Below, piece by piece: positions 855-21,774 of a DNA stretch of 23,184 bases. The translations under genes were made by a program, and so were the position numbers. This DNA comes from a virus: the IMG/VR virus record IMGVR_UViG_3300003690_003726, positions 1 through 23,184 of that record. One strand, written 5' to 3'. Within the stretch, counting starts at the first letter, position 1, and every line of letters begins with the position of its first letter. The notes below the pieces were generated by a model. That model searched no databases. It was not told the origin of the DNA and worked only from the letters and a program-made list of their open reading frames with translations.

Positions 855-862
855 TATCTTTG
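855..862 (+). promoter_or_regulatory. -7 box of the XRE regulator promoter
   Basis: TATCTTTG matches the Bacteroidota -7 consensus TAnnTTTG exactly. It lies 19 bp before the ATG at 881, which would give a very short leader. No clear TTG -33 element stands at the usual spacing. The reversed operator-like motif at 838-846 sits just upstream, where a bound repressor could block RNA polymerase. Confidence 0.5.
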
Positions 863-880
863 TTTAATAAATATAAATCA

Positions 881-1156
881 ATGGAACTACTTAGAATTAA
901 AGAGCTTTTGAAACAAAAAGGTATCACGGGAAAGGAATTTGCCGAACAGTTAGGTATAAGCCCTGTAGCAATGTCCAATATAGCAAGCGGCAATTCTTTT
1001 CCGCGGCCTGAGCTACTATTAAAAATTGCTGAAAATTTTGATGTAGACTTAAAAGAGTTGTTCGTTTCAACCAAGGTCAATCAGGTAAATGAAGCTGTAT
1101 ATCGGTTGAAGGATGGAAAATACATTGAAATAGGTTCCTTGGATTTAAGCAGATAA
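881..1156 (+). CDS. XRE-family helix-turn-helix transcriptional regulator (repressor-like)
   Basis: A 91-aa cytosolic DNA-binding protein. Residues 4-62 form a canonical five-helix Cro/C1-type HTH: RIKELLKQKGITGKEFAEQLG, then ISPVAMSNIASG as recognition region, then PELLLKIAENFDVDLKELF. The short tail (residues 65-91, ending LKDGKYIEIGSLDLSR) looks beta-rich and may serve in dimerisation. I chose the ATG at 881 rather than the upstream TTG at 860, because the TTG lies inside the TATCTTTG promoter box and the family usually starts at this point. It diverges from the two leftward genes over an operator-like repeat array, so it probably represses them and itself. It lacks the peptidase domain of LexA/CI-like repressors, so RecA-triggered self-cleavage is unlikely; relief by an anti-repressor would be the alternative. 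Confidence 0.85.
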   Translation: MELLRIKELLKQKGITGKEFAEQLGISPVAMSNIASGNSFPRPELLLKIAENFDVDLKELFVSTKVNQVNEAVYRLKDGKYIEIGSLDLSR

Positions 1157-1182: not shown

Positions 1183-1431
1183 ATGACAAAAGAAGAAGTT
1201 GAAACGATTGTAATGCAAACCTTGAATAAAAAAGGCTTAAGTATATCCAAGTTAACATCCTTTAAACCAAAGATGAAAACTACTGAAGTGGTTAAGTATT
1301 TAGAGTGTGACAGGAAATGGCTTTACAATAATCGAGACGTATTTAACGGCCGAAGAAAAAATAGCCGAGGGGATTATGAATTTGATACTGAAAAAGTAGT
1401 AAATTATAAAATTAAGAAAGCGCTCATTTAA
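1183..1431 (+). CDS. Small excisionase-like winged-helix DNA-binding protein
   Basis: 82 aa. Residues 30-80 read as an HTH/winged-helix of the excisionase/DNA-binding type: MKTTEVVKYLECDRKWLYNN is the helix-turn-helix, then a basic turn (GRRKNSRGDY) and a closing FDTEKVVNYKIKKAL helix. Small proteins like this direct recombination (Xis) or act as transcription factors in mobile elements. It starts 26 bp after the XRE gene on the same strand, so both are probably on one transcript. Its 3' end overlaps a convergent small ORF by 8 bp. The residue pattern supports DNA binding well; whether it is excisionase or regulator cannot be decided here, particularly as the integrase is at the far end of the window. 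Confidence 0.65.
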   Translation: MTKEEVETIVMQTLNKKGLSISKLTSFKPKMKTTEVVKYLECDRKWLYNNRDVFNGRRKNSRGDYEFDTEKVVNYKIKKALI

Positions 1432-2310: not shown

Positions 2311-2312
2311 TT

Positions 2313-2798: not shown

Positions 2799-2807
2799 AA
2801 ATTAAAT

Positions 2808-3353
2808 ATGAATAAACTTCTACTTTTATTACTGGCGGTGTTTTTTACCGCTTCTTCTTATTCTCAAAAAATGTATATATGGTGTCCGGAGGAAATGGAG
2901 CCGGTTGAACAAACTGGTAGATTAAACGGAACTAAAGTTTACCTCAACATTGAAGATGTCCGTTTGCTATCCAAAAAGAGAAAGGAAAAATGTTCTTCTG
3001 AGGAACTTGTAGAATCTTTAGAGCAGCTAATTGCTATCTCTTATCCTAATGCTGAATACACTCAAAGTAAAGAGAATAGTGAAATAACTATCCAGATACA
3101 AATAACAGCTTATTATTCAGAATTCCATACTGCTGCCTGGAAAGGCAAAACCGAAATGAACGTGGTATTTACGGATAACCGTAATGGAGAGGATATCAAT
3201 ACACAATTTGAAATATCAAAATCTAAGGCTAACGCTAATTTTGGAGGAATGAAAACAGCTAAAAATAACTTGAGAAAATCTTACAATAAGGCCGTTATAG
3301 AGTTGCTTGCAAATCTCAATAAGCTTACACTAAGACAAACCATTAAAAATTAA
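2808..3353 (+). CDS. Secreted/periplasmic hypothetical protein
   Basis: 181 aa with a type I signal peptide (residues 1-19, MNKLLLLLLAVFFTASSYSQ, cleavage near SYS-Q). The mature protein has a short N-terminal segment with WCPEEMEPVEQ, a helical stretch ELVESLEQLIAISY, a run of alternating strands (EITIQIQITAYYSEFH...KTEMNVVFTDN), and a C-terminal amphipathic helix LRKSYNKAVIELLANLNK. This order recalls small periplasmic lipoprotein-like folds of the YajG/DUF4410 type, but I would not assign it. It sits third in the envelope cassette, 9 bp after the lipoprotein and 5 bp before the coiled-coil gene. It has two cysteines in the mature part. Confidence 0.6.
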   Translation: MNKLLLLLLAVFFTASSYSQKMYIWCPEEMEPVEQTGRLNGTKVYLNIEDVRLLSKKRKEKCSSEELVESLEQLIAISYPNAEYTQSKENSEITIQIQITAYYSEFHTAAWKGKTEMNVVFTDNRNGEDINTQFEISKSKANANFGGMKTAKNNLRKSYNKAVIELLANLNKLTLRQTIKN

Positions 3354-3358: not shown

Positions 3359-3706
3359 ATGGGTTTATTTGGCAATAAAGATCATTATTATGAAAGGGTA
3401 GAATTAGCTAAAAAAATGGCTCATAATGCTAATGACGCTAATGTAGAGATCAGAGATTTAATGGAATCATTTAATGCATCTGAAAGGAGGTTTGATAATC
3501 TCGCAGAAGATATGATGGAATTCTCTCAAAAAATTCTTCATAAACTAAATGAAGAAGAAATGGAAGAGTTGACTAAACTCACTGAAAAGGTGGTTGAAAT
3601 CAATAAAATACACAATTCCACAATTAGAAAAGTGATAGAGATCTCAGATAATCAAAATGAACGGGCAAAGGATGCTATTGAACATTACAGCCGGATAAAG
3701 GGGTAA
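3359..3706 (+). CDS. Coiled-coil cytosolic protein
   Basis: 115 aa with no signal peptide or TM segment. From residue 10 to the end it is one long charged amphipathic helix pattern (ELAKKMAHNANDANVEIRDLMESF..., EEMEELTKLTEKVVEINKIHN...), typical of a coiled coil; the first residues MGLFGNKDHYYER are small and flexible. Function unknown. As the last gene of the cassette (5-bp gap), it is the only member that seems to stay inside the cell, so it might be a regulator or cytosolic partner of the exported products. A palindrome followed by a T-run lies 64 bp downstream and could end the transcript. Confidence 0.6.
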   Translation: MGLFGNKDHYYERVELAKKMAHNANDANVEIRDLMESFNASERRFDNLAEDMMEFSQKILHKLNEEEMEELTKLTEKVVEINKIHNSTIRKVIEISDNQNERAKDAIEHYSRIKG

Positions 3707-3756
3707 CTTATTTTAGGTCAAAGCTATAGTTTATGTCGAAAGGTTATTGTAAAATG

Positions 3757-3772
3757 TTTTAGTTTATATTTA
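3757..3772 (+). promoter_or_regulatory. Promoter-like element shared with the 9015 module
   Basis: The 15-mer TTTTAGTTTATATTT at 3757-3771 recurs exactly at 8914-8928. It ends in TATATTTA, one base off the TAnnTTTG -7 consensus. It lies about 125 bp before the ATG at 3897, so it could drive the three-gene group 3897-4740. A palindrome begins at its 3' edge. Confidence 0.35.
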
Positions 3773-3794
3773 CGGAATTCCGTAAGGTTTTTTT
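3770..3794 (+). terminator. Perfect palindrome followed by T7: terminator or operator
   Basis: TTACGGAATTCCGTAA is a perfect 16-bp palindrome that can fold as a 6-bp stem with an AATT loop. It is followed by GG and seven Ts, which fits a rho-independent terminator for the envelope cassette. Because it also abuts a -7-like box, a repressor operator or a leader attenuator is the alternative. Confidence 0.45.
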
Positions 3795-3896
3795 AAATTT
3801 ATCGACTAAAACCTCGGATCTTTAATTTACAAATTGTTAATAGGTTAGTTTTTATAAACATTTTTATTTAATTTGTATCCAATAAACTTTCAAAAT

Positions 3897-4121
3897 ATGA
3901 AAATTCATCGGGCTAAATATACTACCCACATTGATGCTAGGACTAGGGTCTTTAGTAATTTCGATTCATTTTTAGATTTCTTTTCAAGAAATAGAAATAA
4001 TATGGAGAGATTAAAAGTGCACCCTCCCAAGTTAGGTTCTGATGGTTTTGGATCAATAGAGGTTAAATTAAAGTCTTTTAACAATGTCCCAAGGAAAGCA
4101 GAATTCGAGAAAAAGTACTAG
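3897..4121 (+). CDS. Small hypothetical protein, 74 aa
   Basis: Unrecognised small basic protein with no signal peptide or TM segment. I start it at ATG 3897 (MKIHRAKYTTHIDARTRVFS), not at the TTG 24 bp upstream, which lies in promoter-like AT-rich sequence. The N-terminus is basic, the middle is F-rich (FDSFLDFFSRNR) and the end is charged. Its last 38 bases overlap the start of the next gene in another frame, which suggests translational coupling. It is first of three same-strand genes (3897, 4084, 4567) that probably form an operon. Its coding status rests mainly on this arrangement. Confidence 0.5.
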   Translation: MKIHRAKYTTHIDARTRVFSNFDSFLDFFSRNRNNMERLKVHPPKLGSDGFGSIEVKLKSFNNVPRKAEFEKKY

Positions 4122-4551
4122 TAATAATTCTCCGGTTAATGTCAATGAAACCGAGCTAATTAGGGAATTTTTAAGTAACCAGTCCAAAGAACTTTCTAAC
4201 CAAAAAGAAGAAATTGAGCTTCGAAAATTAAATGAAAAAAATGCCTATTCGTATGGATGTAAGGCTTTAGAAGTTCAACAACAAGACCGAAAGGAATCTA
4301 GAGAGCAAGCTACTTCTTTTATGAAATATGGGTTTGCACTCACAATTGTTGTTCTCTTATTACTATCAGCCTTCGTTGGAGGTTGTATTTATACGGGAAA
4401 TATAGGTTTAATTGTAAGTGTTATGAAGGTGTTAGCCTATGTTGTGCCTTCAACTTTGGGGGGTTATTTCATTGGTATAAATAGAGGCAGGAAGAAGGGT
4501 AGAAATGAGTCTAGTGATTCAGTACCTTATGCGGAAGTAGAAGAAGAGTAA
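4084..4551 (+). CDS. Two-TM membrane protein with N-terminal coiled coil
   Basis: 155 aa. Residues 1-20 are S/N/K-rich and flexible, and 22-75 form a charged helix likely to be a coiled coil (ELIREFLSNQSKELSNQKEE...). Two membrane helices follow, about 82-104 (FALTIVVLLLLSAFVGGCIY) and 107-132 (LIVSVMKVLAYVVPSTLGGYF), then a basic cytosolic tail (RGRKKGR) and an acidic C-terminus. Both ends should face the cytoplasm, making a membrane-anchored cytosolic coiled coil. Small proteins of this architecture are common in prophages as exclusion or hypothetical proteins, but no function can be assigned. The ATG at 4084 lies inside the end of the preceding gene, and the YodC-like gene starts 15 bp after the stop. 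Confidence 0.65.
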   Translation: MSQGKQNSRKSTSNNSPVNVNETELIREFLSNQSKELSNQKEEIELRKLNEKNAYSYGCKALEVQQQDRKESREQATSFMKYGFALTIVVLLLLSAFVGGCIYTGNIGLIVSVMKVLAYVVPSTLGGYFIGINRGRKKGRNESSDSVPYAEVEEE

Positions 4552-4566
4552 CTTATTAATTAAAGT

Positions 4567-4740
4567 ATGTCTAGTAAAGAAGATTTTAAAATAGGACAAT
4601 CAGTAATATTGAATAGCGGTGGACCAGCAATGACTATTGTTGAAGTGTATGAAGATTTTTGTAAATGTGGGTGGTTCGATGTGAACTCTCACTTTCAGAT
4701 ATCAGAATTTAATAAATCCATAATTACGGGCTATAATTAA
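4567..4740 (+). CDS. YodC/DUF2158 family small protein
   Basis: 57 aa. The sequence FKIGQSVILNSGGPAMTIVE... followed by CKCGWFDV and a closing FQISEF matches the usual YodC/DUF2158 pattern: (F)xxGDxVxLKSGGPxMTV, then CxWF, then a final F/L strand. Members are small, single-domain SH3-like proteins of about 55-75 aa, widespread in bacteria and phages and without an established function. The length is full for the family. The gene is third in its group, 15 bp after the two-TM protein gene, and its stop is followed by a 62-bp convergent gap to the terminase cluster. The family pattern is clear despite the small size. Confidence 0.75.
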   Translation: MSSKEDFKIGQSVILNSGGPAMTIVEVYEDFCKCGWFDVNSHFQISEFNKSIITGYN

Positions 4741-4764
4741 ATTTACTAAACCAAATCTAATTAT

Positions 4765-4781
4765 TGGGAGTATTATTCCCA
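4765..4781. terminator. Possible stem-loop between convergent genes
   Basis: TGGGA-gtattat-TCCCA forms a 5-bp stem with a 7-nt loop in the 62-bp gap between the stops of the YodC-like gene (+) and the third terminase-like gene (-). The position suits a bidirectional terminator, but neither side has a proper T-run. Confidence 0.25.
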
Positions 4782-4802
4782 TCTCGCATCATTTTGCGTT
4801 CT

Positions 4803-5347
4803 TCACTGTAAAATTTTTTCTTTTAGATCTGCTAGGCGTTTTAGCTTTTCATCTTCCGTCATAACCGGATTTCTTTGAATGTTATCTTCGAGGTAGAAAC
4901 CAGTATGTTTAAGGATCATATCCATAGCCTTTTCTTTGGATACAAACCATAGTTTCACATTTGTTTCTGTAACGAGCCGGTCCTTATCGTGTAGCTCCGG
5001 GTGTTAGTTTCAAATCTGGCGATTAATCTTCTTACTTCCGGCGTAAGCTTTTTTAAATCTTCTGGTGATAATAAAAGCGTTTGGGTAATATCGGAGTATG
5101 CCCAATTTTCTAACTCCTTTAAAAGCACCTCGTGTGAAGTTCTTAGGGCTTCTTGTGCATTCTCCTGCTTCTCTTTTTTATAATTTTCAACGTTAGGAAT
5201 TGTTAGGATTCTGCTAAACTCTACCTTGGCTGTTTCGTCAGAAGATCTAGGATAAATTCTCTGATAAGCTTTGGCTCCATTGAAGCCATTTGTAAACCAT
5301 TCGTCTATAACAAGCTTATATTTTTGGAAAGTTTTGTCTGTCATCAC
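4803..5347 (-). pseudogene. Terminase small subunit-like gene with a frameshift
   Basis: The intact 5' frame (5347 to a stop at 4955, 130 codons) encodes a phage terminase small-subunit-like protein. It starts MMTDKTFQKYKLVIDEWFTNGFNGAKAYQRIYP and includes SSDETAKVEFSRIL and IPNVENYKK, the HTH-type DNA-recognition pattern of this group. After ARFETNT the frame turns into nonsense (RSYTIRTGSLQKQM). A second frame opens exactly there and reads TPELHDKDRLVTETNVKLWF, then VSKEKAMDMILKHTGFYLED, up to a TGA at 4803, and this looks like the natural C-terminus. One added base in the GGG at 4999-5001 (CCC on the coding strand) would join the frames into a 181-aa protein. This could be decay, a sequencing error or, less likely, programmed -1 frameshifting. 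It lies 30 bp after the second small-terminase gene. No large-subunit gene follows. Confidence 0.7.
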
Positions 5348-5377
5348 TTATTGCTTTTTACCTCATCTTGGATAATG

Positions 5378-5884
5378 TTAACCTCTTCCGTTATCGGGGA
5401 TTTGAAAAACTGTAATTTTCCCACCTTGTTGATTATTATCTCTTTCGTATCCGCCCAAATACTTTAAAAGCATATCTATTGCTCCTTTTCTGCCTGCTAA
5501 GCGAGCTTTGCGGATGTTTCCGACTACTCGACCGTCTACATTCATTTCATCAGTGTCAAGTCCCTCTATAGCCATTCTATGTGCTTTAGGAATTTGATCT
5601 AATGGTTTTAGATTTCCATTCGAATCGTATATTTCAGCAATATCAAATCTTGCTAAGTTTGCAAGAATACCTACGCATTCGTCTACGCTTATTTTGTTGC
5701 GTTCTACTGCCTTTTCTCGTTCTTCCTGTATCTTTTGCTGAATGTTAGCATTTGCAAGCAATCTAGCCCCCTCTGTTCTCGCTCCACTTTCTGAATATCC
5801 TGCACGGATTGCAGCCTGTGTTGCATTTAGATCAACCAGGTATTCGCTTATAAATTTTTCCTGCTTAGGAGTTAGTTGAGGCAT
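5378..5884 (-). CDS. Phage terminase small subunit (Terminase_2-like)
   Basis: 168 aa. The first 60 residues are a textbook small-terminase DNA-binding region: LTPKQEKFISEYLVDLNATQ, AAIRAGYSESGARTEGARLL and ANANIQQKIQEEREK. Such proteins bind the packaging site of phage DNA as an oligomer and hand it to the large ATPase/nuclease subunit. The middle (IAEIYDSNGNLKPLDQIP) and the RKARLAGRKGAIDMLLKYLGGYE stretch also fit the family, and the length is normal. It lies in a leftward cluster between two other terminase-small-like genes (31 bp after the 187-aa gene), behind the promoter at 6502-6532. The partner large subunit is absent from the window, which is the main oddity. Confidence 0.85.
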   Translation of the reverse strand: MPQLTPKQEKFISEYLVDLNATQAAIRAGYSESGARTEGARLLANANIQQKIQEEREKAVERNKISVDECVGILANLARFDIAEIYDSNGNLKPLDQIPKAHRMAIEGLDTDEMNVDGRVVGNIRKARLAGRKGAIDMLLKYLGGYERDNNQQGGKITVFQIPDNGRG

Positions 5885-5915
5885 AGTTTATTTAAATTTC
5901 GAATGATCTGTACAA

Positions 5916-6479
5916 TTACTCATTTGAAGGTTTAGCCTTCCTATGAAGTTTCTGAAGGGTTTTCAATTCTTCTACCGAGAGTTTGCTTAAATCGGGTTCT
6001 TTAGAACTGATCTTATCACCTCCGGTGGTGTGGTCGATATTCTGACTATCTCGCCAGTTTTTTGGCCTTCTGTTTTTAAGCCAAAATTGTTGGTTTCTGA
6101 AGTCGGCCGGAATAGTCTTTTCAACGTCTACGAGTTCGATTCTTTCGGTTTCAATTCGCTTACCTTCATCATTCCAGGAAACCTCTTTTACTTTGAATGC
6201 TTGTTGCTCGGTAACAATTCTATCCTGAGTGCCTTTGTAAAGCGATTGGGCTACTTCTAAGTCGCTTATTTCCTTTCCCTGCGTTATGGACTGAAAAAAA
6301 CTTGGATGTTGTTTCTTCCAGTTGTTTATAGTTCTCTCATCAACATCAAAAAGTTTCCCTAGCTGCGCATCAGTGGCTCCCAATAAACAGTACTTATACG
6401 CAAGGTCATTCATAGACTCGTCATACTTTGAAGGTCGCCCTTCTCCTTCTGCATATTTATTATTCCTTTCGGCCGCCAT
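5916..6479 (-). CDS. HTH DNA-packaging protein, terminase small subunit-like
   Basis: 187 aa. Residues 15-75 read RPSKYDESMNDLAYKYCLLG, then ATDAQLGKLFDVDERTINNW, then KKQHPSFFQSITQGKEISD. This is an HTH of the kind found at the N-terminus of many phage terminase small subunits and packaging HTH proteins, where the helix recognises the phage packaging site. The later part includes DFRNQQFWLKNRRPKNWRDS, also frequent in these proteins, and a charged C-terminal tail. It is first of three leftward terminase-small-like genes and the one nearest to the promoter at 6502-6532. A plain transcription factor is possible, but the context favours packaging. Confidence 0.75.
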   Translation of the reverse strand: MAAERNNKYAEGEGRPSKYDESMNDLAYKYCLLGATDAQLGKLFDVDERTINNWKKQHPSFFQSITQGKEISDLEVAQSLYKGTQDRIVTEQQAFKVKEVSWNDEGKRIETERIELVDVEKTIPADFRNQQFWLKNRRPKNWRDSQNIDHTTGGDKISSKEPDLSKLSVEELKTLQKLHRKAKPSNE

Positions 6480-6501
6480 TGTTATTTAGAATGTTTCTAA
6501 A

Positions 6502-6532
6502 CAAATATAACGATTCTATGTTAATACCCCAA
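6502..6532 (-). promoter_or_regulatory. Promoter of the terminase small-subunit cluster
   Basis: On the minus strand, TATATTTG (6502-6509) is a perfect TAnnTTTG -7 box. A TTG (6530-6532) lies 20 bp upstream of it, close to the usual Bacteroidota -33/-7 spacing. The start of translation at 6479 is 22 bp downstream. The rest of the gap up to 6636 holds no gene. Confidence 0.55.
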
Positions 6533-6636
6533 TCCTAAAAATTTGATTAAATGCCTCAACGAATGAAAAAGGAGACTTACATTGGCCTAGGTAGTATATT
6601 TAATTCATTTCCGGTAAAACAATCAGGAATGATTAA

Positions 6637-7221
6637 TTAGAAGTTTTTATCAATTATAGTTCTACAAATACGTTCTAAAGCTGCAATTTTTTCTCCTAAT
6701 TCTTTTTTAATTGGATCTTCTTTTGAGCTAGAATATAAAATTTTCCTAATCTCCTTTAACCTTTCTCTTTTATATTCTGGATCATAATCAAATTCACCTG
6801 CGCTTAACCAAATAAATTCATCTGTCGCAGAGAATACTTTGTTAACAATAGTGATAAAGTCTAAAATATGCTTTCCATGATCTTTTCCGTATACCGCCAT
6901 AAAACGGAACCTTAATGACCTTAGTTTATCATATGCTTCCTTGTTTTTATTAAATCGAGTACGAATTATAAAAGCTTGGTCTAGGGCCCTGGAAATTTCG
7001 GGTGTCTCATTCTCCTGGCGCACGCGATCACTAACCTCTTCCTTAGTACTGATTCCTAACCGCATATAATCAACATTTTGCTCAAACTCATAAATTGATG
7101 CTAATATTTCCTCTGCTAATTCATATTTCCTTTTCCATTTCTCCTCCAAACGCCATCTAATGATACCCCAAACAGCAACCAAAGAGGCTATTATTACGAC
7201 TATACTCTCAATTATTTCCAT
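6637..7221 (-). CDS. Single-TM membrane protein with helical cytosolic domain
   Basis: 194 aa. Residues 4-22 (IESIVVIIASLVAVWGIIRW) form an N-terminal membrane anchor followed by positive charges (RLEEKWKRKY), so the bulk lies in the cytoplasm. The remainder is helical and charged, with pairs such as YDKLRSLRFRFMAVYGKDHG and ILDFITIVNKVFSATDEFIW, and a C-terminal helix EKIAALERICRTIIDKNF. I do not recognise the family; anchored helical proteins like this occur widely in mobile elements. It is 157 bp upstream of the terminase cluster on the same strand, but that cluster has its own promoter, so this is likely an independent accessory gene. It diverges from the 7422 gene across 200 bp of very AT-rich sequence. 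Confidence 0.65.
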   Translation of the reverse strand: MEIIESIVVIIASLVAVWGIIRWRLEEKWKRKYELAEEILASIYEFEQNVDYMRLGISTKEEVSDRVRQENETPEISRALDQAFIIRTRFNKNKEAYDKLRSLRFRFMAVYGKDHGKHILDFITIVNKVFSATDEFIWLSAGEFDYDPEYKRERLKEIRKILYSSSKEDPIKKELGEKIAALERICRTIIDKNF

Positions 7222-7421
7222 TTATTCAGATTCTATGGGTGAAATATACTCTAAGAGTTATTGATATGCTCAGGCTTTAACCTATTTTCAATATACCTTA
7301 GAAATTATACTATTAAATAAATAATATAAAATATAGTTTTTATTTTTTATTTTAAAAAAGTCAGAAATAGAGAATATAGAATATAATTTTTTAACTTGTA
7401 GGAAATCAAAACTTTAAAGTT

Positions 7422-7679
7422 ATGGCCAAGGAGGAATTTGATCCATCTTACTTTATGAATGTAGAGATGATTGAGGAGCTTAAAAAGCTAGGGGATGATC
7501 CCGATATAGAAGACTTTACAAATGGTGTCTTCAATTGTTTTAAAACGCCAATACTGTTACGAGTTATGGCGGACGTAATGGAAGAGGATAATAAACTTGT
7601 CGTTGATATTCTGGCAAAAGAGATCAATTATAGAATGATTCAAGTAATGCATGAGAAGAACACCACTAAGGAAGAGTAA
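7422..7679 (+). CDS. Hypothetical protein, 85 aa
   Basis: Small acidic helical protein (MAKEEFDPSYFMNVEMIEEL, later FNCFKTPILLRVMADVMEED) with no signal peptide or TM segment. No family recognised. It is the first of two rightward genes; the second begins inside its last 29 bases in another frame, so they are likely translationally coupled. The AT-rich 200-bp divergent gap upstream (7222-7421) must contain its promoter, though no perfect TAnnTTTG box was seen there. A two-gene pair of small acidic partner plus larger protein could be an accessory or toxin-antitoxin-like module; that is only a guess from layout. Confidence 0.6.
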   Translation: MAKEEFDPSYFMNVEMIEELKKLGDDPDIEDFTNGVFNCFKTPILLRVMADVMEEDNKLVVDILAKEINYRMIQVMHEKNTTKEE

Positions 7680-8028
7680 TTGCACTGATATTTTTTCAGC
7701 GGAGTATGTTCAAAATGATCTCGCAGAATTCACTTTTGATTATCGCTTTTCGGGAAGCCGTAGAGGTGAAGTAATAGATATGTTTGTCTTTACCTGGATA
7801 ATCGATGCAGATGAAAATATTTTCGTGAGGTATTGCAGTTATATGGGGAATTCCGACGGGTGGAAAGAAGCTATTAAAAACCAGATTAAAGACCTAATGG
7901 CGGTTATTAATATTGGTGCTGGATTTATTACTAGTTCATTGCGGTTTTTCGAAGTGGATAATGAGTACCATCGGAAACCTGAAGCTTTTGAAAAAGAGTT
8001 CCTTGAATTGAAAGGAAAAATTCTATAA
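7651..8028 (+). CDS. Hypothetical protein, 125 aa
   Basis: Unrecognised cytosolic alpha/beta protein. The middle has clear strand-like segments (AEFTFDYRF, EVIDMFVFTWIIDADENIFVRYCSY) followed by helices (WKEAIKNQIKDLMAVINIGA, EAFEKEFLELKGKIL). The ATG at 7651 is the only useful start and makes a 29-bp overlap with the preceding gene; the first dozen residues (MRRTPLRKSNCTD) look unlike folded protein, so the true start could be a non-ATG codon a little downstream. It is followed by a 1-kb stretch with only a broken gene. Codon use resembles the neighbours. Confidence 0.55.
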   Translation: MRRTPLRKSNCTDIFSAEYVQNDLAEFTFDYRFSGSRRGEVIDMFVFTWIIDADENIFVRYCSYMGNSDGWKEAIKNQIKDLMAVINIGAGFITSSLRFFEVDNEYHRKPEAFEKEFLELKGKIL

Positions 8029-8929: not shown

Positions 8930-9014
8930 AACCGTAAATAAGGTCTAACCCGTCAAGAACTCATCCTTGGTCTCGTTTCTTGTATGGTTTCAGACTGTTT
9001 AGAGAAAGAATATT

Positions 9015-10443: not shown

Positions 10444-10770
10444 TTAATTGAGAGGATGGTTAGGCGGATAAAGATTACTGCTTTTTTTCTCCGCATTAGT
10501 TTTAGCTTGTTTCAGAGCAGCCATTATTTCAGCGTGCTTATGAACTAATTTCATGTGCTTCTGAAGAACTTCCATAAGAACATTATTAAATTCTCTTTGT
10601 AATGGAGATAACTCCTCTTCCTTCATCAATCGTTTTAAATATGTTGGTACCTTCTCAATATTCTCATTTAGGTCTGCGCTCATAACTGCGTGATCCATTA
10701 TGGAATTATCGAGGTGGTTGAGGTCTTTTACGAGGCTGTTATAAGCGTTTTCTATTTTTTTTTGATCCAT
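10444..10770 (-). CDS. Helical protein downstream of the tape measure gene
   Basis: 108 aa, almost wholly helical and charged (IENAYNSLVKDLNHLDNSIM, FNNVLMEVLQKHMKLVHKHA), ending in a flexible YPPNHPLN tail. No signal peptide or TM. It begins 53 bp after the tape measure gene on the same strand and is the last gene of the long leftward block. A small tail-associated or chaperone role would fit its place, but no family was recognised. The 65 bp between it and the convergent 10378 stop contain only a weak GAGGA/TCCTC inverted repeat, not a convincing terminator. Confidence 0.6.
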   Translation of the reverse strand: MDQKKIENAYNSLVKDLNHLDNSIMDHAVMSADLNENIEKVPTYLKRLMKEEELSPLQREFNNVLMEVLQKHMKLVHKHAEIMAALKQAKTNAEKKSSNLYPPNHPLN

Positions 10771-10823: not shown

Positions 10824-13800
10824 TTACATGTTGTCGGCTAGTCGTTTGTTTCTTAATTCCAGTACAAGTTCAGAATTATTATTGTTGTTTATCATTTTGA
10901 CGTTGGAAAATCCTTTTTTAATTGCGGATTCCATTTTACTGCTGTTATCCATTATTATTTTCTGAAAATCTCTATCTGGAATAGCTGTATTATTGAGGGC
11001 AAACTTATATTCTAAATCCTGCATTACAGATGCTTTACGCACCTCATCGTAATTTACAATATCAGCTATATCTCCGAAAAAACTTTCATAATTTTTATGC
11101 ACCTTATCGCCTTTATCCATATTAATTAACTGGTTTCTTTTAGTTGGTAGCGATAGAGATCCGTCCTTATGTTCTATTACTTCCCGGTAGTTATTTCCAG
11201 GGGCATCATTCACAATAGCTGGACCTTCATAAGTTCCTAGTAAATGGCCGTCCTTGAATCGGGGAATAGGTTGGGCGGCAACAAAAGCGGCTTGAGCGGC
11301 ACCTAAACCAGCGGCCAATGCAATTGCTAAAGGATTAGGTATTGCTTTAGATATGGCTACTGCGGTATTAATAGCGATTTGAAACAAAGCCGCTCTTTTC
11401 TCTTCCTCAGCCTGCTTTCTTTTTAACTCCTTTTCCTTTTTCCTGAATTCTTCCCGAGCCTCCTCTTTCTGCTGTTCGGTAGCATATTCATTGTTAAGAA
11501 CCCTATCCATATTTTCACGGGCGATGGCAATTTCATCATCATACCTTTGCCTGGTCATATTTAGGATTGTAGTTGCAGCGGAAGCTGCGGCATCTACATA
11601 ATCTTCTTGAGTTAATTCTGTTTTTTTAGTTATGAGGTTTTCAAATGCGGAAAAGTCTATTCCGTAAAATTCAGCGAACTGGCTAAAAGTATCAGCGACT
11701 AATTGCCGCCTTGTATCCTCTTGTTCTCTGAGTATATCGGTTTTCGCCTTTTCGGTTTTCTCGTATTGATAAATTTCAAGCTCTGAAGTATCCTCCGGGG
11801 TTTCCATTTCAGGAGTTCCGATCTTCTGGATATCATTTACTGGTCCACCAATAGAGCCAACACTAAAAGTTTTACCCTGAATTTCTTCTAACTTACGTGC
11901 CAGATGAGCAATTGCCTTATTGTATTCCTGCACTTCTTCTTTGGTAGTCGCGTATTTATCTCGTTGCTCTTCTAATGCCGAAATAGAAGCTTCAATAGCT
12001 TTTATCGACCCGGCATTGTATTTTTCTGAATCATCCGGTTCTGGATCTTCTTCAGCAGGATCTGCATTTACGGAGTTGGCGATTTCCTTTAATGCTTTTT
12101 CAGCACTTATTTTTGAGATGGTATTTTCAAAACCTTCTTTAAACGCAGACCCGATATTTTTTGCTGCTTCTCCGCCTAATTGGTTCTTCAGATCACCTAA
12201 TATGGTCTTGGCACTTTCTGCCATTTTACCAGGATTCAGTAAGTCTATTTCGATATCCCCGAATCTTGAGATAGTTTCAAATAACTGTATAAACTCATCC
12301 TTAAACTGTTTAATCATATTGGTAAACCCTCCCCAAGACGCACTTAATATTGTTACATTCCTGTTGAGGTGCTCTAAAACGGTTGCAGCTGTACCGGCTA
12401 AGAATGCAAAAAACTTTCCGAATATTCCCTGTCCGTTTTCAATAGATAATACTAAGTTATCCCAGGCAATACCCACACGGTTTAATTGATTATCTAATTT
12501 TTGGCTTGCGGCTGAAAACTCCTCATCTAATGCACCTGATGCTGTGGTAACATCTTTAATTGCTTTCTCAAGCGTGTTAAAGCCCCCGGTCGCTAAAGAA
12601 GCTAAAACTCTTTGATCTCTTATAGCTACTATTCCAATATTTTCCAGTTGCTCATTAACACTTCCCCCAGCTTTATCTATTTTGCTTAGTCCTATTATAA
12701 AATCAGTAAAAACACCTGCGGAATTTTCTTTAAAATTTACACCTATTTCTTCTGCGCTTTGACCTGTTAGAGTAAGTATCGTTTCTAAGTTCTTACCGGT
12801 TCTTATCGCTTTCTCGAATTGCCCTAAAGACCTACCTATTGTAGATCCGGTTATCTCGGCTTCTATTCCTACGGCTTTAGTGGCGGTTGCGTATGCCAGT
12901 ACATCACGTCTACCGAATTTGTACTGTCCTGTATTCTGAGCAATAGCGGTGGCATTACTTAAAATTTCACTTTCTGTTGCAGCAAAGTTATTACCCAGTT
13001 CTACTATTTCATCACCAAAATCCTGAATGTTTTGAACTCCGCCATCTGTTAGAGTAAGTAAACGGGCTATTTGAGCGGCTCCTTCTTCCCCTGAAATATT
13101 TGAAGCGGTTTCAAGTTTAGCAAGTCCTTCAGCAAAAGCAAGTATATTTTCGCGGCCTTTTACTCCTAACTGTCCAGCTACCGTTGCATATTCTAACAGG
13201 GCAGGGGTTCCAACTGTTTGAAGGTTACGGGAGAGTTTGATAATATCATTCCCCAGGCCTTCTAATTCCGCGCCCATTAATCCGGTGGTTTTGCCTACGT
13301 TTCGTAATTCAGAATCAAAACCTATAACTGTATCTTTATTTCTCTGGATAAGCATAAATAACGAACCTAAAGCCGTTATAGCTAATCCTACGGGAGATAA
13401 TAAAAAAGTCAAGGTAGCTTTCCCGAAGTTTATTATTCCAGTAGTAAGGGCTTTAAATGGGTTTTTATTTTTAGAGATTTCGTCTAAGTTGGTCCCCATT
13501 CCTTCCAAACCCATATTAATGCGGTCAAAAGCAGGGTGTAAATTTCCTAAAGCAGATTGGTAATTACCTACATTTCGCTGATGTTGGCCTACCGAGGCAT
13601 CAATGTCTTTTAAACGATTATCTAAATTCCGAACCTCAGCGGCCGCTTTCTTTGCTTGCGTTGAATCTTCTCCAAATTCTGCGGCTAAATCTTTAGCTCT
13701 TCGTCTAGCTTGATTTAGTTCGGTTGATAATTTTTTATAGGCCCCGGTCAGAGTAGAGTTTAAAATAGCATTTTCTTTGAACTCTTTATTTAAAATGCTC

Positions 13801-14120
13801 GTTTCTAATCGGGTTTGATGCAATTGTTTATTTGTACCTGATTGAGCCGAATAGAACTTAGCCTGCGCACTTGCCAGGGCCTTATTTATACGCTCGCTTT
13901 CTTTTTGATGCGCATTTAATTGCTTCGTGAGTTCGGTAGATTTTTTAAGGCTTCTTTCAAATTGATCTGGCACTTCCAGGTTCAGTTTCTGTTTGGATAG
14001 ATCCTGAGAAGATTTATAAAGATTAATGAAAGCTTTATTAGTGCTGCTCAATCGATCTTCTAATTCCTGTAATTCCCGGTAGGCTTGTTTGTCTACTATG
14101 GTGTTAATACTATCGCTCAT
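10824..14120 (-). CDS. Phage tail tape measure protein (TP901-like core)
   Basis: 1,098 aa. It sets tail length in a siphovirus- or myovirus-like particle and is ejected with DNA. Residues 10-190 are coiled coil, ending in VGQHQRNVGNYQSALGN, a segment common in tape measures. A hydrophobic segment follows at about 235-258 (LTFLLSPVGLAITALGSLFM). The TP901-type core runs from about 265 to 560 (FDSELRNVGKTTG, EYATVAGQLG, GEEGAAQIARLL, YKFGRRDVLAYATA, NQLNRVGIAWDNL). A second highly charged coiled coil (EEAREEFRKKEKELKRKQ) and an Ala-rich hydrophobic stretch leading into PIPRFKDGHLLGTYEG complete it. Its ATG overlaps the stop of the upstream 162-aa gene by ATGA. It appears intact, which argues against a fully dead prophage. 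The tail-tube and chaperone genes normally found beside it are absent. Confidence 0.9.
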   Translation of the reverse strand: MSDSINTIVDKQAYRELQELEDRLSSTNKAFINLYKSSQDLSKQKLNLEVPDQFERSLKKSTELTKQLNAHQKESERINKALASAQAKFYSAQSGTNKQLHQTRLETSILNKEFKENAILNSTLTGAYKKLSTELNQARRRAKDLAAEFGEDSTQAKKAAAEVRNLDNRLKDIDASVGQHQRNVGNYQSALGNLHPAFDRINMGLEGMGTNLDEISKNKNPFKALTTGIINFGKATLTFLLSPVGLAITALGSLFMLIQRNKDTVIGFDSELRNVGKTTGLMGAELEGLGNDIIKLSRNLQTVGTPALLEYATVAGQLGVKGRENILAFAEGLAKLETASNISGEEGAAQIARLLTLTDGGVQNIQDFGDEIVELGNNFAATESEILSNATAIAQNTGQYKFGRRDVLAYATATKAVGIEAEITGSTIGRSLGQFEKAIRTGKNLETILTLTGQSAEEIGVNFKENSAGVFTDFIIGLSKIDKAGGSVNEQLENIGIVAIRDQRVLASLATGGFNTLEKAIKDVTTASGALDEEFSAASQKLDNQLNRVGIAWDNLVLSIENGQGIFGKFFAFLAGTAATVLEHLNRNVTILSASWGGFTNMIKQFKDEFIQLFETISRFGDIEIDLLNPGKMAESAKTILGDLKNQLGGEAAKNIGSAFKEGFENTISKISAEKALKEIANSVNADPAEEDPEPDDSEKYNAGSIKAIEASISALEEQRDKYATTKEEVQEYNKAIAHLARKLEEIQGKTFSVGSIGGPVNDIQKIGTPEMETPEDTSELEIYQYEKTEKAKTDILREQEDTRRQLVADTFSQFAEFYGIDFSAFENLITKKTELTQEDYVDAAASAATTILNMTRQRYDDEIAIARENMDRVLNNEYATEQQKEEAREEFRKKEKELKRKQAEEEKRAALFQIAINTAVAISKAIPNPLAIALAAGLGAAQAAFVAAQPIPRFKDGHLLGTYEGPAIVNDAPGNNYREVIEHKDGSLSLPTKRNQLINMDKGDKVHKNYESFFGDIADIVNYDEVRKASVMQDLEYKFALNNTAIPDRDFQKIIMDNSSKMESAIKKGFSNVKMINNNNNSELVLELRNKRLADNM

Positions 14121-14605
14121 AGGTTGGTTATATTTAGATTAATGATTTGGTCTTTTCCTTTTTCAATAGAGGTAATAAGAGAATCAAGTTGCTTGTTGAG
14201 TTGTTCAACAATAGAAACCGGGTCAACACCTTTTAAAGTAAATCCATCATTTTTTAAAAGGTATAGAATCGTTTGCAGGTCTTTTTTGGATAAATAGGAG
14301 TGGGTGAACAAATTAAGCGCACAAACCGCTCTATTATACTTGTCTGTAAGCCCAGAAATCTCTAATTGTATTAAACCAGTTAAATAATTTTGAATATTAT
14401 TCGATTCGCTTTGATGTTTGCTAAGCTGATCTTGATATTCCGCAATTTTCTTAATTTGATCGTCAAGCTCTTTAAAGCTTTTAGCATTAATTTTGGGACC
14501 ATCGGCATCTTTTACCAGATTAAGAATTCGTCTATGATTGCCCCTTAATTTTTTACGGCTTTCCTCAATTTGGTTTTTAAGTTGAGGTGTTTTGTTCTTT
14601 TTCAT
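14117..14605 (-). CDS. Coiled-coil protein between tail genes, 162 aa
   Basis: Starts at ATG 14605 (MKKNKTPQLKNQIEESRKKL); the reading frame is open further upstream to a TTG at 14677, but that extension is less likely. The first 80 residues are strongly basic and helical, then an ELDDQIKKIAEYQDQLSKHQ coiled-coil stretch, then a more hydrophobic helical part (LFTHSYLSKKDLQTILYLLK) and a final helix ITSIEKGKDQIINL. No family recognised. It overlaps the tape measure start by 4 bp (ATGA), so the two are translationally coupled. By position it could be a tail assembly chaperone-like or tape-measure partner protein, but classical chaperones are encoded with a programmed frameshift, which I do not see. 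Confidence 0.65.
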   Translation of the reverse strand: MKKNKTPQLKNQIEESRKKLRGNHRRILNLVKDADGPKINAKSFKELDDQIKKIAEYQDQLSKHQSESNNIQNYLTGLIQLEISGLTDKYNRAVCALNLFTHSYLSKKDLQTILYLLKNDGFTLKGVDPVSIVEQLNKQLDSLITSIEKGKDQIINLNITNL

Positions 14606-14682
14606 ACTTCGCGTTTTTGATGTCAGGTTTTGTAAGGTTTGATGTTGATTCCCGTATCCACGTAATGATTCCAACAAAGTCT

Positions 14683-17245: not shown

Positions 17246-19035
17246 TAGAATGGAATTTCATCGTCCTCATCACCCTCTACATTCCATAAACTTTCCGAGG
17301 CTTGTTGAGGTGTATTAGGATCAGGTTTGTCAATTAGGCATTCGGTAGAAAAAGGGATTCCTTTTGCGTAGTATCTTCCACTTGGTTTGTGGTAGTTAAA
17401 TGATATGCTCTCTCCAATTTTACCCTGGAAACCATATTTGGTTTTCATGTTTATGAATTCAGTACCCTCTGTAGTGCCTTTATCTGGATCTCCAAAGTAT
17501 CTGTAGATTGTGAATCCATCGTGGGTTTGGTTTCTGAAATCCGCACTTCCTGCAACATCATAAAGCGTGGGGCAGGCGTACACACCGGATTCGTTCTTTT
17601 GCATCTTTGTTGGGTGAGCAATTAGAAAGATGATAACATTATTACGCTGTGCAAAGCTGGTGAGCTCCGTAAGGCATTCGTTTATCAAATCCAGTTTATT
17701 CCCTCTCCTGTCGAATAGAACCTTATTAAACGCATCTATAACGAAAACATCAATTCCAAAGGAATACATTTGCTCCTTGAATTTATTTAAAAGCCATCCC
17801 CAGGTAGGCGATTCATTCCCTTCAGGACCAGTAAGGTAAATTCTTTCATTTGCCCAATCTCGATATTTTTCAATTTCAGCTTTTGTTACTTTTTCTACTC
17901 CATAAGTGTTTTCAAAGAATGGTTTACCGGTAAATTTCTGGATGAAGCTTGTTTGATGTAGTTCCATCGGGCTATGTTCCGGACTAAAGAAGCTGGCCTT
18001 CAGGTTATAATCATTCACTATATTCAATACATACCAATCCACGAAGTTTGATTTACCGTGAGAAGGTATTCCGGTACCAGTCACTAAATGACCGCGCATG
18101 GTTGAGAATATTTCTTTTAAATCTCCAAAATATTCTCTTTTTGGAGAGATTGTTTCAGGAAGACCGTTATCGTATAAATCAAGAATTGATGGATATAAAT
18201 CATCTACTCTAAAGGTTCCGCTAACAGCATAACGCTTAGGGCTACTAATTGACTTTTCCAAGACATCTCTGCCTTCCATTAGGTCATCATTTGCGTCTTT
18301 GTTTTTAAATTCAATTCTAAGGCATCGCCATCTACCTAATCGTTGAGCGATCTTCTCACTGAGTTCCTGTCCCTTTTTATCGCAGTCTGTTGCTATATAG
18401 AACTTCTGGATATTCTTAATGTACTTTTCAGAATTTTTCCAGACATCATCATTGTCATTTGCGCCATTGGGAACGCTGACGGCATTTTTAATTCCGATCT
18501 CCCATAATGCTAGTTTGTCCATTTCACCTTCAACGATGTACACCTCATCAGCATCTATAATATCATTGATACCATAGAAAATATTTTTAGTTCCTGCAGA
18601 CTGAGTAAATTTTTTGTCTCCTGATCTATATTTTTTGTTGACTATAGTTTCTCCTTCGAAGTAGTTGAAAACTATATTGTTAACTTTTTTATTAAGCTGA
18701 GGTTGATAGTAGTTTTCCTCGGTAATTCTACAGTCTATAAGCGTCGATTGTGAGATATTTCGAGATTCTTTAAACCACTTTACCACCTTATCAGAAAGAG
18801 TGGTGTAGTTTTTCCAGGTCTGTACGGGTAATTTATATTCTACAGGCGATTCTGTTTCTTCTGATTCCCGAAATGATACCTCATCACAATAATGACATTT
18901 AGCCCTCCCTGTATTTAAATTAACGCTTAAAGACTTATCCCTTTTGTTGGTACGTCTATCGATACAAGCCGGACATTTTACTTTTATTTGCCCGCTAGAT
19001 CTTCCTTTAGTATCTATGTCTTCCCAGTTAATCAT
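17245..19035 (-). CDS. Phage primase-helicase, T7 gp4-like
   Basis: 596 aa, with all parts of a bifunctional replicative primase-helicase. The zinc-binding motif is C21-x2-C24 and C47-x2-C50 (CPAC...CHYC). The TOPRIM primase core has E170 (YIVEGEMDKLALW) and D217/D219 (IATDCDKKGQ). The RecA-like DnaB-type helicase has a Walker A at 322-329 (GIPSHGKS), a Walker B ending in D434 (VFVIDAFN) and H474 in IIFLIAHPTK, a typical later motif. It should unwind the element's DNA and lay down primers at the fork. The length is that of T7 gp4 relatives and no key residue is missing. The ATG overlaps the initiator gene's TGA (ATGA at 19035-19032), so loader and helicase are made together. Confidence 0.9.
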   Translation of the reverse strand: MINWEDIDTKGRSSGQIKVKCPACIDRRTNKRDKSLSVNLNTGRAKCHYCDEVSFRESEETESPVEYKLPVQTWKNYTTLSDKVVKWFKESRNISQSTLIDCRITEENYYQPQLNKKVNNIVFNYFEGETIVNKKYRSGDKKFTQSAGTKNIFYGINDIIDADEVYIVEGEMDKLALWEIGIKNAVSVPNGANDNDDVWKNSEKYIKNIQKFYIATDCDKKGQELSEKIAQRLGRWRCLRIEFKNKDANDDLMEGRDVLEKSISSPKRYAVSGTFRVDDLYPSILDLYDNGLPETISPKREYFGDLKEIFSTMRGHLVTGTGIPSHGKSNFVDWYVLNIVNDYNLKASFFSPEHSPMELHQTSFIQKFTGKPFFENTYGVEKVTKAEIEKYRDWANERIYLTGPEGNESPTWGWLLNKFKEQMYSFGIDVFVIDAFNKVLFDRRGNKLDLINECLTELTSFAQRNNVIIFLIAHPTKMQKNESGVYACPTLYDVAGSADFRNQTHDGFTIYRYFGDPDKGTTEGTEFINMKTKYGFQGKIGESISFNYHKPSGRYYAKGIPFSTECLIDKPDPNTPQQASESLWNVEGDEDDEIPF

Positions 19036-19745
19036 ATTACAGTAATATTCTCTGTTGGTTTCTTACTGGCATTTTTTCGATCACTGAAATCTCTTTTAAC
19101 CCAATTTCTTACTGCTGCTTTCCAATTTTTCATTTTGGATTTTCCGCCAACTTTCCATCCATTTGACTGAAAGTGATTTGTGAATTTTTCGGATTCGGTT
19201 TGCGCTGCCTTCTCATCAAGGTTTATTTCCCTCATATAGGCAAAAACTTCTTTTAAAATGGGAGGGGTGAATTTTCTTTTTCCCTCTTCAGTTTTATCTT
19301 CTTCTTCCTCTTCTACTTCATCTTCTACTTTCGAAACCATTCCGTAATGGTTTAAAAGGCTTTCGAAGGCTTCCGAAGGGTTAGATTTGGAGAGGTTAGA
19401 ACCTTTGATCTTCATATCATTAGGCAGGTTGTTATGAACATCAATGGCAGCCTTCTTCATATTAGGATTGTATTTTTGATGTTTCATATAATTAACCAGG
19501 ACCACGTGGTTATTTTTATATTTAACCTTACCAACCTTTTCAAAGGCTTCCAAAGCATTGGAAATAGTATCTTCTTTTATGCCGGTTTCAAATGATATTT
19601 TACGAGTTGATACCTCGTAAATACCAAGCATATTGGTTTTCTCATTTGTGATTAGGTAGATAAAGAGAAGTTTTTCTTCCGGGGTTAATATTTCAATCCA
19701 GGGATCGGACCAGAAGCTTGTATTGAGCGATCTTAACTTACTCAT
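19032..19745 (-). CDS. RepO-like replication initiator/helicase loader
   Basis: 237 aa. Residues 1-105 match the winged-helix N-terminus of phage replication initiators: RSLNTSFWSDPWIEILTPEE, LLFIYLITNEKTNMLGIYEV, RKISFETGIKEDTISNALEA. A disordered, strongly acidic linker (about 140-158) follows. The C-terminal domain (about 160-225, FTPPILKEVFAYMREINLDE through FQSNGWKVGG to MKNWKAAVRNWVK) resembles helicase-loading C-termini of DnaD/DnaT/O-type proteins, with the GWKVG...MKNWKAAVR signature. It likely binds the element's origin and recruits the adjacent primase-helicase. The origin itself was not found; iterons, if any, should lie in or near this gene as in lambda O. Confidence 0.75.
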   Translation of the reverse strand: MSKLRSLNTSFWSDPWIEILTPEEKLLFIYLITNEKTNMLGIYEVSTRKISFETGIKEDTISNALEAFEKVGKVKYKNNHVVLVNYMKHQKYNPNMKKAAIDVHNNLPNDMKIKGSNLSKSNPSEAFESLLNHYGMVSKVEDEVEEEEEDKTEEGKRKFTPPILKEVFAYMREINLDEKAAQTESEKFTNHFQSNGWKVGGKSKMKNWKAAVRNWVKRDFSDRKNASKKPTENITVI

Positions 19746-19771: not shown

Positions 19772-20059
19772 TTACTGCTCTAAGAGGATAAGGCTATCTT
19801 CAATCTCTGATCGTTTAAAAAGAACCCGGCCTATTAGACTGTATTTTTTTAATTTTCCTTCTTTAGTATAGCGGTTGAGAGTGGGCAGGCTTATTTTTAA
19901 TAAACTACATACCTCATCACGAGTAAGGTACTCTTCAGGTTTTTTTTGTTGGAATTCTTTCTTCAGTTCCTCAAGAAGCGAGGGAACCAATCCGCGAGTT
20001 ATTCTTTTCTCTAATTGATCTGAAAATTCCTCGGTGTCTTGAATAAGTTGTAAACCCAT
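19772..20059 (-). CDS. Excisionase/AlpA-like HTH_17 DNA-binding protein
   Basis: 95 aa. The C-terminal half (residues about 45-90: YLTRDEVCSLLKISLPTLNR, YTKEGKLKKYSLIGRVLFKR) is a standard MerR-like HTH_17 winged helix, as in excisionases and AlpA-type activators. The N-terminal half is helical (EFSDQLEKRITRGLVPSLLE). I start it at ATG 20059; the TTG at 20086 further upstream would overlap a promoter-like GATTTG sequence. It is first gene of the replication group, 26 bp before the initiator, and directly downstream of spaced TTAGGTTTT repeats. In satellites and prophages such a protein can control excision or activate early genes; which one applies here is not decided by the sequence. Confidence 0.75.
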   Translation of the reverse strand: MGLQLIQDTEEFSDQLEKRITRGLVPSLLEELKKEFQQKKPEEYLTRDEVCSLLKISLPTLNRYTKEGKLKKYSLIGRVLFKRSEIEDSLILLEQ

Positions 20060-20093
20060 AACTATTGTTTTAATGTTATGGTACAAATCTGAG

Positions 20094-20189: not shown

Positions 20190-21053
20190 CTATGAGTTGT
20201 TTTGATCTTTAGGTTCAAAACCAAAATTAATCAAGGTTTGTTTTACTTTCTTGACCTTTTTTTCGTTTGATAATGGATTGTTTTTCTGTAATACTTGAGG
20301 GTTTACCATTGGATTTAGGTAGGATTGAACGGTGGATGTAGGCATATTAGTGAAAGAACTTATTACGGCGGCCATAGCGTGTGTAGAGCCTTGAAAACAC
20401 TCGAACTTTTGTAGATGATCTATAATACCTAATTCCTTAAGGAATATCATTCTTTCCGTACCAGGATTATTAAAGGTTTCTTCGTTTTGAATTTCCGGGG
20501 TCTTAGCCTTATTTAGATTAGACAATTCAACCTCATAGTTAAGCATGCTTTTCTTCATTTTCAACTCGGCTATTACAAAGGATATTTTTCTGATATATGA
20601 ATCTGTTAACCAGGTATTGGGAGGGCAATGAAGAATGTCCTCTAAGTATTCTATCAAACCTTCAGCAGATTTGATTTGTAGATTTAATAAACGTAATGAA
20701 TAGATAAAATTTTCTACTGTTTGTAGAGGGGTGGTCTGCTTATTTAAATCTTCTGCTTTATTAATTTTGTCGGAAAGATTTGGATTTAATTCTTCTTTAA
20801 TCAATGGAAGGTAGTGGAGTAGGGTTTTGGTTAAATGGGTAATTTCGTAATACTCCGAATCCACTAGAATATCTTCATATAAACATTCACTGTCATGGCC
20901 TTCCTTCCCCCAATAAAACAAGGGTTTTTGTATTTTATTTAGAATACTAATCGTTAAATCATCCGCGTAAAAAGCTTCTATTTCATCTTCATATTTCTTT
21001 TTATCCCGTAGAAATAATTGCACATCAAATAAGAGATTTTTAAATATTGCCAT
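20190..21053 (-). CDS. Integrase-linked hypothetical protein, 287 aa (paralogue A)
   Basis: No signal peptide or TM. The N-terminal 200 residues are helical and not recognised (LLFDVQLFLRDKKKYEDEIE...). The last 80 residues carry a compact signature: FLKELGIIDHLQKFECFQGS, then THAMAAVISSFTNM, then TVQSYLNPMVNPQVLQKNNP, then KKVKKVKQTLINFGFEP. Roughly half of these positions are the same in the next gene upstream, so the two are tandem, diverged paralogues sharing a C-terminal domain with different N-termini. I believe proteins with this C-terminus often stand next to tyrosine integrases in Bacteroidota mobile elements, but I know of no function. It begins 1 bp after the stop of paralogue B. 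Confidence 0.7.
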   Translation of the reverse strand: MAIFKNLLFDVQLFLRDKKKYEDEIEAFYADDLTISILNKIQKPLFYWGKEGHDSECLYEDILVDSEYYEITHLTKTLLHYLPLIKEELNPNLSDKINKAEDLNKQTTPLQTVENFIYSLRLLNLQIKSAEGLIEYLEDILHCPPNTWLTDSYIRKISFVIAELKMKKSMLNYEVELSNLNKAKTPEIQNEETFNNPGTERMIFLKELGIIDHLQKFECFQGSTHAMAAVISSFTNMPTSTVQSYLNPMVNPQVLQKNNPLSNEKKVKKVKQTLINFGFEPKDQNNS

Positions 21054-21054: not shown

Positions 21055-21774
21055 TCAATTCACTTTGTAGCCTATATTAATTAATGCTTGCTTTACTTTT
21101 TCTACTTTCTTAATAGATTTTAAGGGATTGTTTTTTTGCCCTACTCCACTATTGATAATAGGATTTAAATATGATTGCAGGGTTCCAACATCTTCGCCCG
21201 TTAAGGCGCTTAGCGCTGTGGCTAATGAATTTGTAGAAGACTTAAAAGGTTGTTTAGATAGCAAAAAATCTAAAATTCCCAATTCTTGTAAATAAATTAT
21301 TTTTTCTCTTCCATTAGCGCTCCTTAAATCTAAAATTTCTTTGCTTTCAATTTGATCTAAAGATTGCTGCAGTTTAATCGAGCTATCTAAGGAATACATT
21401 TTCTTAGATAGAAAATGATACTTCAATTTTGCATTTGTAATTTCTTCATGAACTTTCCTATAAAAAAAATTTTCAGGGTATTTTTCTGTTTTTTGAACAT
21501 GAGCAAAATAACTCATCATAATCCTCAATCTCTTTATTCTATAGGCGTTTAGGTCTTTAATAAAATTAATTTCTAAATCTGAATAGTTAATTGAGGGGTA
21601 CTCAGTATTATCTAAAACATATTCGTTTGTTGTTGAAAAAGGAGCAGGAGGTATTTCTGCGTGGCTCTCGCAATACTCCACGAAAACAATTTCATAATTA
21701 CTTATAAATTCTGGATAACTTAAAGCCTTGTATGCCACTAAATTTTTTTCTATTTGCTTTTCTGTAAGTATCAT
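21055..21774 (-). CDS. Integrase-linked hypothetical protein, 239 aa (paralogue B)
   Basis: Cytosolic, mostly helical. The C-terminal 80 residues repeat the signature of paralogue A: YLQELGILDFLLSKQPFKSS, then TNSLATALSALTGED, then GTLQSYLNPIINSGVGQKNN, then KKVEKVKQALINIGYKVN at the very end. The N-terminal 140 residues (KNLVAYKALSYPEFISNYEI, ..., LNAYRIKRLRIMMSYFAHVQ) differ from A. It follows the integrase by 60 bp and is 1 bp from gene A, so integrase, B and A may share a transcript. Possible roles are recombination control or element maintenance; nothing visible decides this. Confidence 0.7.
   Translation of the reverse strand: MILTEKQIEKNLVAYKALSYPEFISNYEIVFVEYCESHAEIPPAPFSTTNEYVLDNTEYPSINYSDLEINFIKDLNAYRIKRLRIMMSYFAHVQKTEKYPENFFYRKVHEEITNAKLKYHFLSKKMYSLDSSIKLQQSLDQIESKEILDLRSANGREKIIYLQELGILDFLLSKQPFKSSTNSLATALSALTGEDVGTLQSYLNPIINSGVGQKNNPLKSIKKVEKVKQALINIGYKVN

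Follow-up and report, generated by a model that had tools for sequence, protein, structure and literature searches.

Three genes resembling small terminase subunits (TerS) lie next to each other in a virus record, and no head genes accompany them. Does such a locus belong to a phage satellite, or is it part of a prophage? We analyzed IMGVR_UViG_3300003690_003726, and the 23,184-base stretch studied here, called the window below, is the entire record. Both of its ends are ends of open reading frames (ORFs): base 1 falls at an ORF stop, and base 23184 at the ATG of the integrase. Thus, the provirus call was probably trimmed at gene boundaries. When the integrase and the left-end gene g02 were used as queries, no overlapping or extended records were found.

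On the minus strand, the genes from base 23184 onward are the tyrosine integrase, g30, g29, an AlpA-like gene, a DnaD-like gene, a primase-helicase, a predicted tail hub, g23 and the tape measure protein (TMP) gene (Table 1). To the left of the TMP gene are a plus-strand cargo block, the three TerS-like genes, further plus-strand cargo and then an XRE repressor on the plus strand. Two small minus-strand ORFs lie to the left of the repressor, toward base 1. The integrase and the excision/repressor module occupy both ends of the element, and island L079 follows the same plan. The DnaD-like protein and the primase-helicase give the element its own replication module. The AlpA-like protein matches the AlpA genes of L002, L063 and L100 at 35-40%, and the DnaD-like protein matches a protein of island L052 at 40% over 103 residues. 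Three consecutive plus-strand ORFs at 1741-3353 have signal-peptide-like starts, as in secreted or lipoprotein-like cargo, and amid otherwise dense coding a stretch of about 1 kb (8028-9015) is free of notable ORFs. The cargo genes gave no credible match to defence HMMs. By eye, g09 and g10 had been suspected to be homologues of membrane-protein pairs in L032 and L063; phmmer found no such homology.

Table 1. Position, strand and basis of assignment of the main genes of the window
Feature	Position	Strand	Evidence
Tyrosine integrase, 449 aa	21835..23184	-	PHROG 216 E=2e-20; start codon on record edge
g30, integrase-adjacent, g29 paralogue	21055..21774	-	34% identity to g29
g29, integrase-adjacent protein	20190..21053	-	g30 paralogue
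AlpA/excisionase-like HTH protein	19772..20086	-	PHROG 66/2907 excisionase E=4.5e-8/8e-6
DnaD-like replication initiator/helicase loader	19032..19745	-	PHROG 6251/1701 E=5e-20/3e-18
Primase-helicase, 596 aa	17245..19035	-	PHROG 239 E=5e-83; 48-61% to phage contigs
Predicted baseplate/tail-tip hub, inserted jelly roll, 724 aa	14683..16857	-	PHROG 15220 E=2e-66; AlphaFold2
g23, 186 aa, overlaps TMP start	14117..14677	-	ORF
Tape measure protein (TMP), 1098 aa, intact	10824..14120	-	PHROG 20660 E=1e-74 and others
g21, small protein downstream of TMP	10444..10770	-	ORF; weak sub-threshold TMP_N match
TerS1, 187 aa	5916..6479	-	PHROG 309 E=1.3e-42
TerS2, 168 aa	5378..5884	-	Terminase_2 E=5e-32; PHROG 51 E=3e-35
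TerS3, frameshifted	4803..5347	-	Pieces 4955-5347 (Terminase_2 E=4e-8) and 4803-4958
XRE repressor	860..1156	+	HTH_19 E=3e-11; 51-65% to L079, L100, L002 repressors
Small protein after repressor	1183..1431	+	Position as in L079 2978-3229; similarity by eye only

The triple TerS cluster is real. Three adjacent genes of this kind, the third of them broken, had been predicted from the sequence, and family matches in Pfam and PHROG together with the frameshift in TerS3 confirm this. TerS1 has no Pfam match above the cut-off, and TerS3 is a divergent Terminase_2. Island L101 has an intact TerS3 relative of 185 aa, with which the two pieces align in different frames, at 35% and about 44-49% identity and with the break at about 4970-4976; TerS3 is therefore frameshifted. 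The genes were also said to differ in sequence. Indeed, TerS1 has no detectable similarity to TerS2 or TerS3, and TerS2 aligns with TerS3 at about 30% over 54 residues. TerS1 matches an island gene (L052:13009-13542) at 40%, and TerS2 matches the island TerS of L063 and L032 at 36-37% and that of L100 at 30%. In a survey of Flavobacteriaceae, Terminase_2 occurred in 5 of 397 genomes, one copy in each. This rarity makes three consecutive TerS genes unusual, and no relative island has three.

In phage contigs, relatives of TerS1 and TerS2 are directly followed by the large terminase gene, TerL (L010, L012, L013, L018). The TerS genes of the window, in contrast, are followed by none, as predicted. 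The predicted lack of TerL, portal and capsid genes also held in PHROG and Pfam scans of the predicted genes of the 23,184-base record, in which no protease, major capsid protein (MCP), tube or neck gene was found either. An ordinary or rearranged prophage could have its head and tube genes to the left of base 1. The record ends at ORF boundaries with the sequence left of base 1 outside it, and every gene of a known family has phage relatives. Nevertheless, we consider such a prophage rather unlikely, and the tail genes are one argument against it.

A single-sequence AlphaFold2 model of the 14683-16857 protein reached a pLDDT of 31; an alignment of 32 sequences was used instead and gave a pLDDT of 82.2 and a pTM of 0.76. 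The latter model matched a phage Mu baseplate protein (9ki1_G; VIA Z 10.8, rmsd 4.6, 310 aligned). It also matched Mu gp44 (Z 9.3), VgrG and the tail-associated lysin (Tal) of NF5 over the whole chain. Residues 155-353 form an inserted jelly roll that matches C1q/TNF folds. By these fold matches, we identify the protein as a hub of the tail tip or baseplate that probably bears a binding domain. Hub relatives occur in phages of Leeuwenhoekiella, Polaribacter, Tenacibaculum and Cellulophaga. In about 40 virus contigs the hub gene is directly downstream of the TMP gene, and two conserved small genes stand just before TMP. The window has the reverse order, hub, g23, TMP, and its replication genes adjoin the hub. 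The closest TMP to that of the window belongs to phage L007 (40% over 1022 aa), whose own hub gave no match, and the hub is closest to those of L126/L127, whose TMPs are distant. This is a mosaic module and not a trimmed prophage operon, because the order is reversed and the nearest phages of hub and TMP differ. For the same reasons, it could not have been obtained by the loss of head genes alone. We do not claim g23 as a tail assembly chaperone: hhalign against the gene upstream of the phage TMP gave a probability of 1%.

Relatives of the window were found by a TMP search of named genomes, which also returned ordinary prophages. Flavobacteriaceae, Pontibacter, Ferruginibacter, Porphyromonadaceae and Prevotellaceae each contained islands that combine integrase, AlpA and TMP and lack a capsid gene. 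Of these, L051 and L079 are complete as judged by 46-bp tRNA repeats. L051, from a Porphyromonadaceae MAG, is 12.5 kb long, and the 46-bp repeat upstream of its integrase is identical to 46 bp in tRNA-Arg; besides integrase, AlpA and replication genes, it has a TMP of 1371 aa. The last gene of L051 (162 aa) looked TerS-like by eye and had no Pfam or PHROG match, so we count L051 as a TMP island only. L079, from Flavobacteriaceae, is 19.0 kb long and bounded by a 46-bp tRNA-Arg repeat. Along with an integrase and excisionase-like genes, it encodes a TMP of 1027 aa and a tail protein of PHROG 6195, and its repressor shares 51% identity with that of the window. A third complete island, L101 (6791-15439; 8.6 kb), lies in tRNA-Ala between direct repeats and carries integrase and AlpA; the intact TerS3-like gene is its only TerS, and it has no TMP. 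The cargo of L101 is ATPase/nuclease-like and by eye resembles defence genes. Thus, the comparison with related genomes that had been proposed, for conserved borders without head genes, revealed three repeat-bounded capsid-less islands: L051, L079 and L101.

The plan of integrase, AlpA, replication genes and TMP, mostly with TerS, recurs in L032, L063, L052 and L046. L032 and L063 are two different islands with TerS and TMP in one genome of Pontibacter ummariensis (G001), and the Ferruginibacter island L052 also has both. The Prevotellaceae island L046 and L079 have a TMP and no recognised TerS. The window is larger than most of these relatives, which, like the broken TerS3 and the lack of a relative with three TerS, counts against a satellite. 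The swapped order of hub and TMP, together with the complete relatives, makes head genes left of base 1 less likely. The repressor common to islands L079, L100 and L002 points the same way, since in the window no more than about 0.9 kb separates it from the left end. The original prediction of a satellite with a tape measure and a tail protein of its own thus gained support from the att-bounded capsid-less relatives and from the hub fold.

Other layouts were also seen. In L002 (6739-15927) and L100 (G336:C1:78000-97900, 3637-14873), integrase and AlpA are accompanied by a portal, a MuF-like protein, TerS, TerL and TMP; neither has a capsid gene, and L100 has a tail protein as well. This may be a second class of capsid-less satellite. 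The genome that contains L051 (G004) has a second element with integrase, AlpA and DnaB (L061/L062), which carries a MuF-like protein, TerS and TerL. By eye, two small proteins of this element (174 aa and 87/103 aa) closely resemble proteins of L051, and the two elements possibly interact. In another genome (G219), two TMP fragments with 93% identity (L082, L083) were found where contigs end, next to tRNA-Ala and tRNA-Leu. One island type is probably present here in two copies, at which the assembly broke.

It is also conceivable that the window is a decayed prophage remnant from which the head genes were deleted and in which the TerS cluster was left over. The frameshift in TerS3 and the stretch at 8028-9015 would agree with decay. 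However, TMP, hub, primase, integrase, TerS1 and TerS2 are all intact, and deletion alone produces neither three unlike TerS genes nor an exchanged order of hub and TMP. Several unrelated islands moreover have a gene set of this kind in intact form, and we regard a remnant as improbable.

We also compared TMP loci with and without capsid genes. Integrase and AlpA were both found within the fetched 20 kb of TMP in eight loci, none of which had an MCP, and among the 31 TMP loci with an MCP none had integrase and AlpA together nearby; in this table the reference sets come partly from the same loci, and a prophage integrase can lie beyond the fetched stretch. Several further Bacteroidaceae TMP loci without matches resemble ordinary prophages on reading. 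The att-bounded islands are stronger evidence than this table. A scan of the island host genomes for PF05065, the one HK97-type capsid family covered, showed its absence from eight of nine. Hence, most islands do not lie beside such an HK97-type prophage.

Where do the satellite TMPs come from? For L032, L046, L051, L079 and the window, the best match in each case is an ordinary phage or prophage TMP, usually from a related host. These matches are in a Pontibacter prophage for L032 (50% over 1312 aa), in a Paraprevotella prophage for L046, in a Butyricimonas prophage for L051 and in virus contigs for both L079 and the window. The TMPs of L002 and L100 form a pair of their own (43% over 950 aa). 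As most satellite TMPs match phage TMPs of related hosts, the simplest reading of these similarities is that TMP genes were captured repeatedly and independently.

Integrases 42-62% identical to that of the window were found in 12 Flavobacteriaceae islands, several of which have att repeats at tRNA-Leu. Homologues of g29/g30 adjoin such integrases in L114, L123 and L124. L114 and L117-L125 are small islands with a window-like integrase and AlpA, often at tRNA-Leu, and with cargo that includes type I restriction or ATPase-like genes; those that were read contain no phage genes. Since defence or other cargo is also found with window-like integrases (L114, L117), the integration module alone is not a mark of a satellite. 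The window has no visible att sites because both would lie outside the record, and the insertion of its integrase relatives at tRNA-Leu predicts where the missing att site should be. That the window is a mobile defence island, whose solitary TerS and TMP serve as decoys that poison the packaging or tail assembly of incoming phages and not for transfer, seems hardly probable: window-like integrases do bear defence-type cargo elsewhere, and interference with tail assembly is a known defence (PLE11 Rta, PMC12987554), but a full-length TMP plus hub exceeds the needs of a decoy, and the apparent TMP captures were repeatedly near full length.

Taken together, it is quite probable that the window is an integrated flavobacterial phage satellite, most or all of which lies in the record, and that it combines TerS with its own tail initiator and is packaged by a helper. 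By analogy with known satellites, we infer packaging redirection and chimeric tails; several packaging specificities may come in addition, with one of the three TerS genes now broken. Judging by their families, the integrase and the AlpA-like protein would excise the satellite, and the DnaD-like protein and the primase-helicase would replicate it. After infection by a putative helper siphophage, one or more of the satellite TerS would bind satellite DNA and recruit the TerL, portal and capsid of the helper, following the PICI paradigm. The satellite hub and TMP would then act as a tail initiator on which the tube proteins of the helper polymerise, as in PLE, and the length, tip and ejection machinery of the resulting chimeric tails would be set by the satellite. 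More speculatively, the jelly roll of the hub may alter or protect receptor binding and shift the host range. Likewise, three unlike TerS might suit different helpers, and so widen the helper range or keep pace with TerL turnover.

We see about an even chance of a wider picture, in which capsid-less satellites across Bacteroidota convergently captured TMPs from phages of their host groups and form chimeric tails, with the window adding a hub with a binding domain and stacked TerS for several helpers. If repeated independent TMP capture across Bacteroidota is true, the replacement of the tail initiator would be a general satellite strategy. The islands borne by isolates allow testing what satellites gain from owning the ruler and the tip of the tail. 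No description of phage satellites of Bacteroidota was found in the literature searched, which covered few subscription papers and is hence weak evidence.

How does the window compare with known systems? The PLEs of Vibrio cholerae use a serine-recombinase integrase and parasitize ICP1. The window has a tyrosine integrase, contains TerS genes and belongs to another phylum. With its tyrosine integrase and flavobacterial relatives, it may work like PLE and is not PLE. Experiments have shown that PLEs, which are PICI-like elements, assemble chimeric tails for which they supply the TMP, the chaperone and the hub themselves (Mathur, Boyd et al., Nature 2026, PMC12987554). The feature in common is a capsid-less satellite with a TMP and a baseplate hub of its own, the latter by predicted fold in the window. 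PLE, in contrast, also encodes a tail assembly chaperone, and its virion biology is proven, whereas that of the window is predicted. Like PICIs and SaPIs, the window has integrase, excision/repressor genes, a replication module and TerS without TerL or capsid within the record. It differs in having three TerS where they have a solitary one and in the added TMP and hub, as far as its genes tell. Putative tmp genes were reported for some capsid-forming PICIs (cf-PICIs; PMC12987554, Extended Data Fig. 10). A cf-PICI, however, makes its own capsid and takes tails, whereas the window, with no capsid, portal or TerL in the record, brings tail parts. The L101-type relatives resemble the minimalist islands (PICMI), by description, in having integrase and AlpA, a small size and few phage genes. 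Compared with this general description, the window is much larger and has tail genes. The most likely reading is that the window is a phage satellite, a variant of known ones, which contributes adaptors for packaging and an initiator for the tail.
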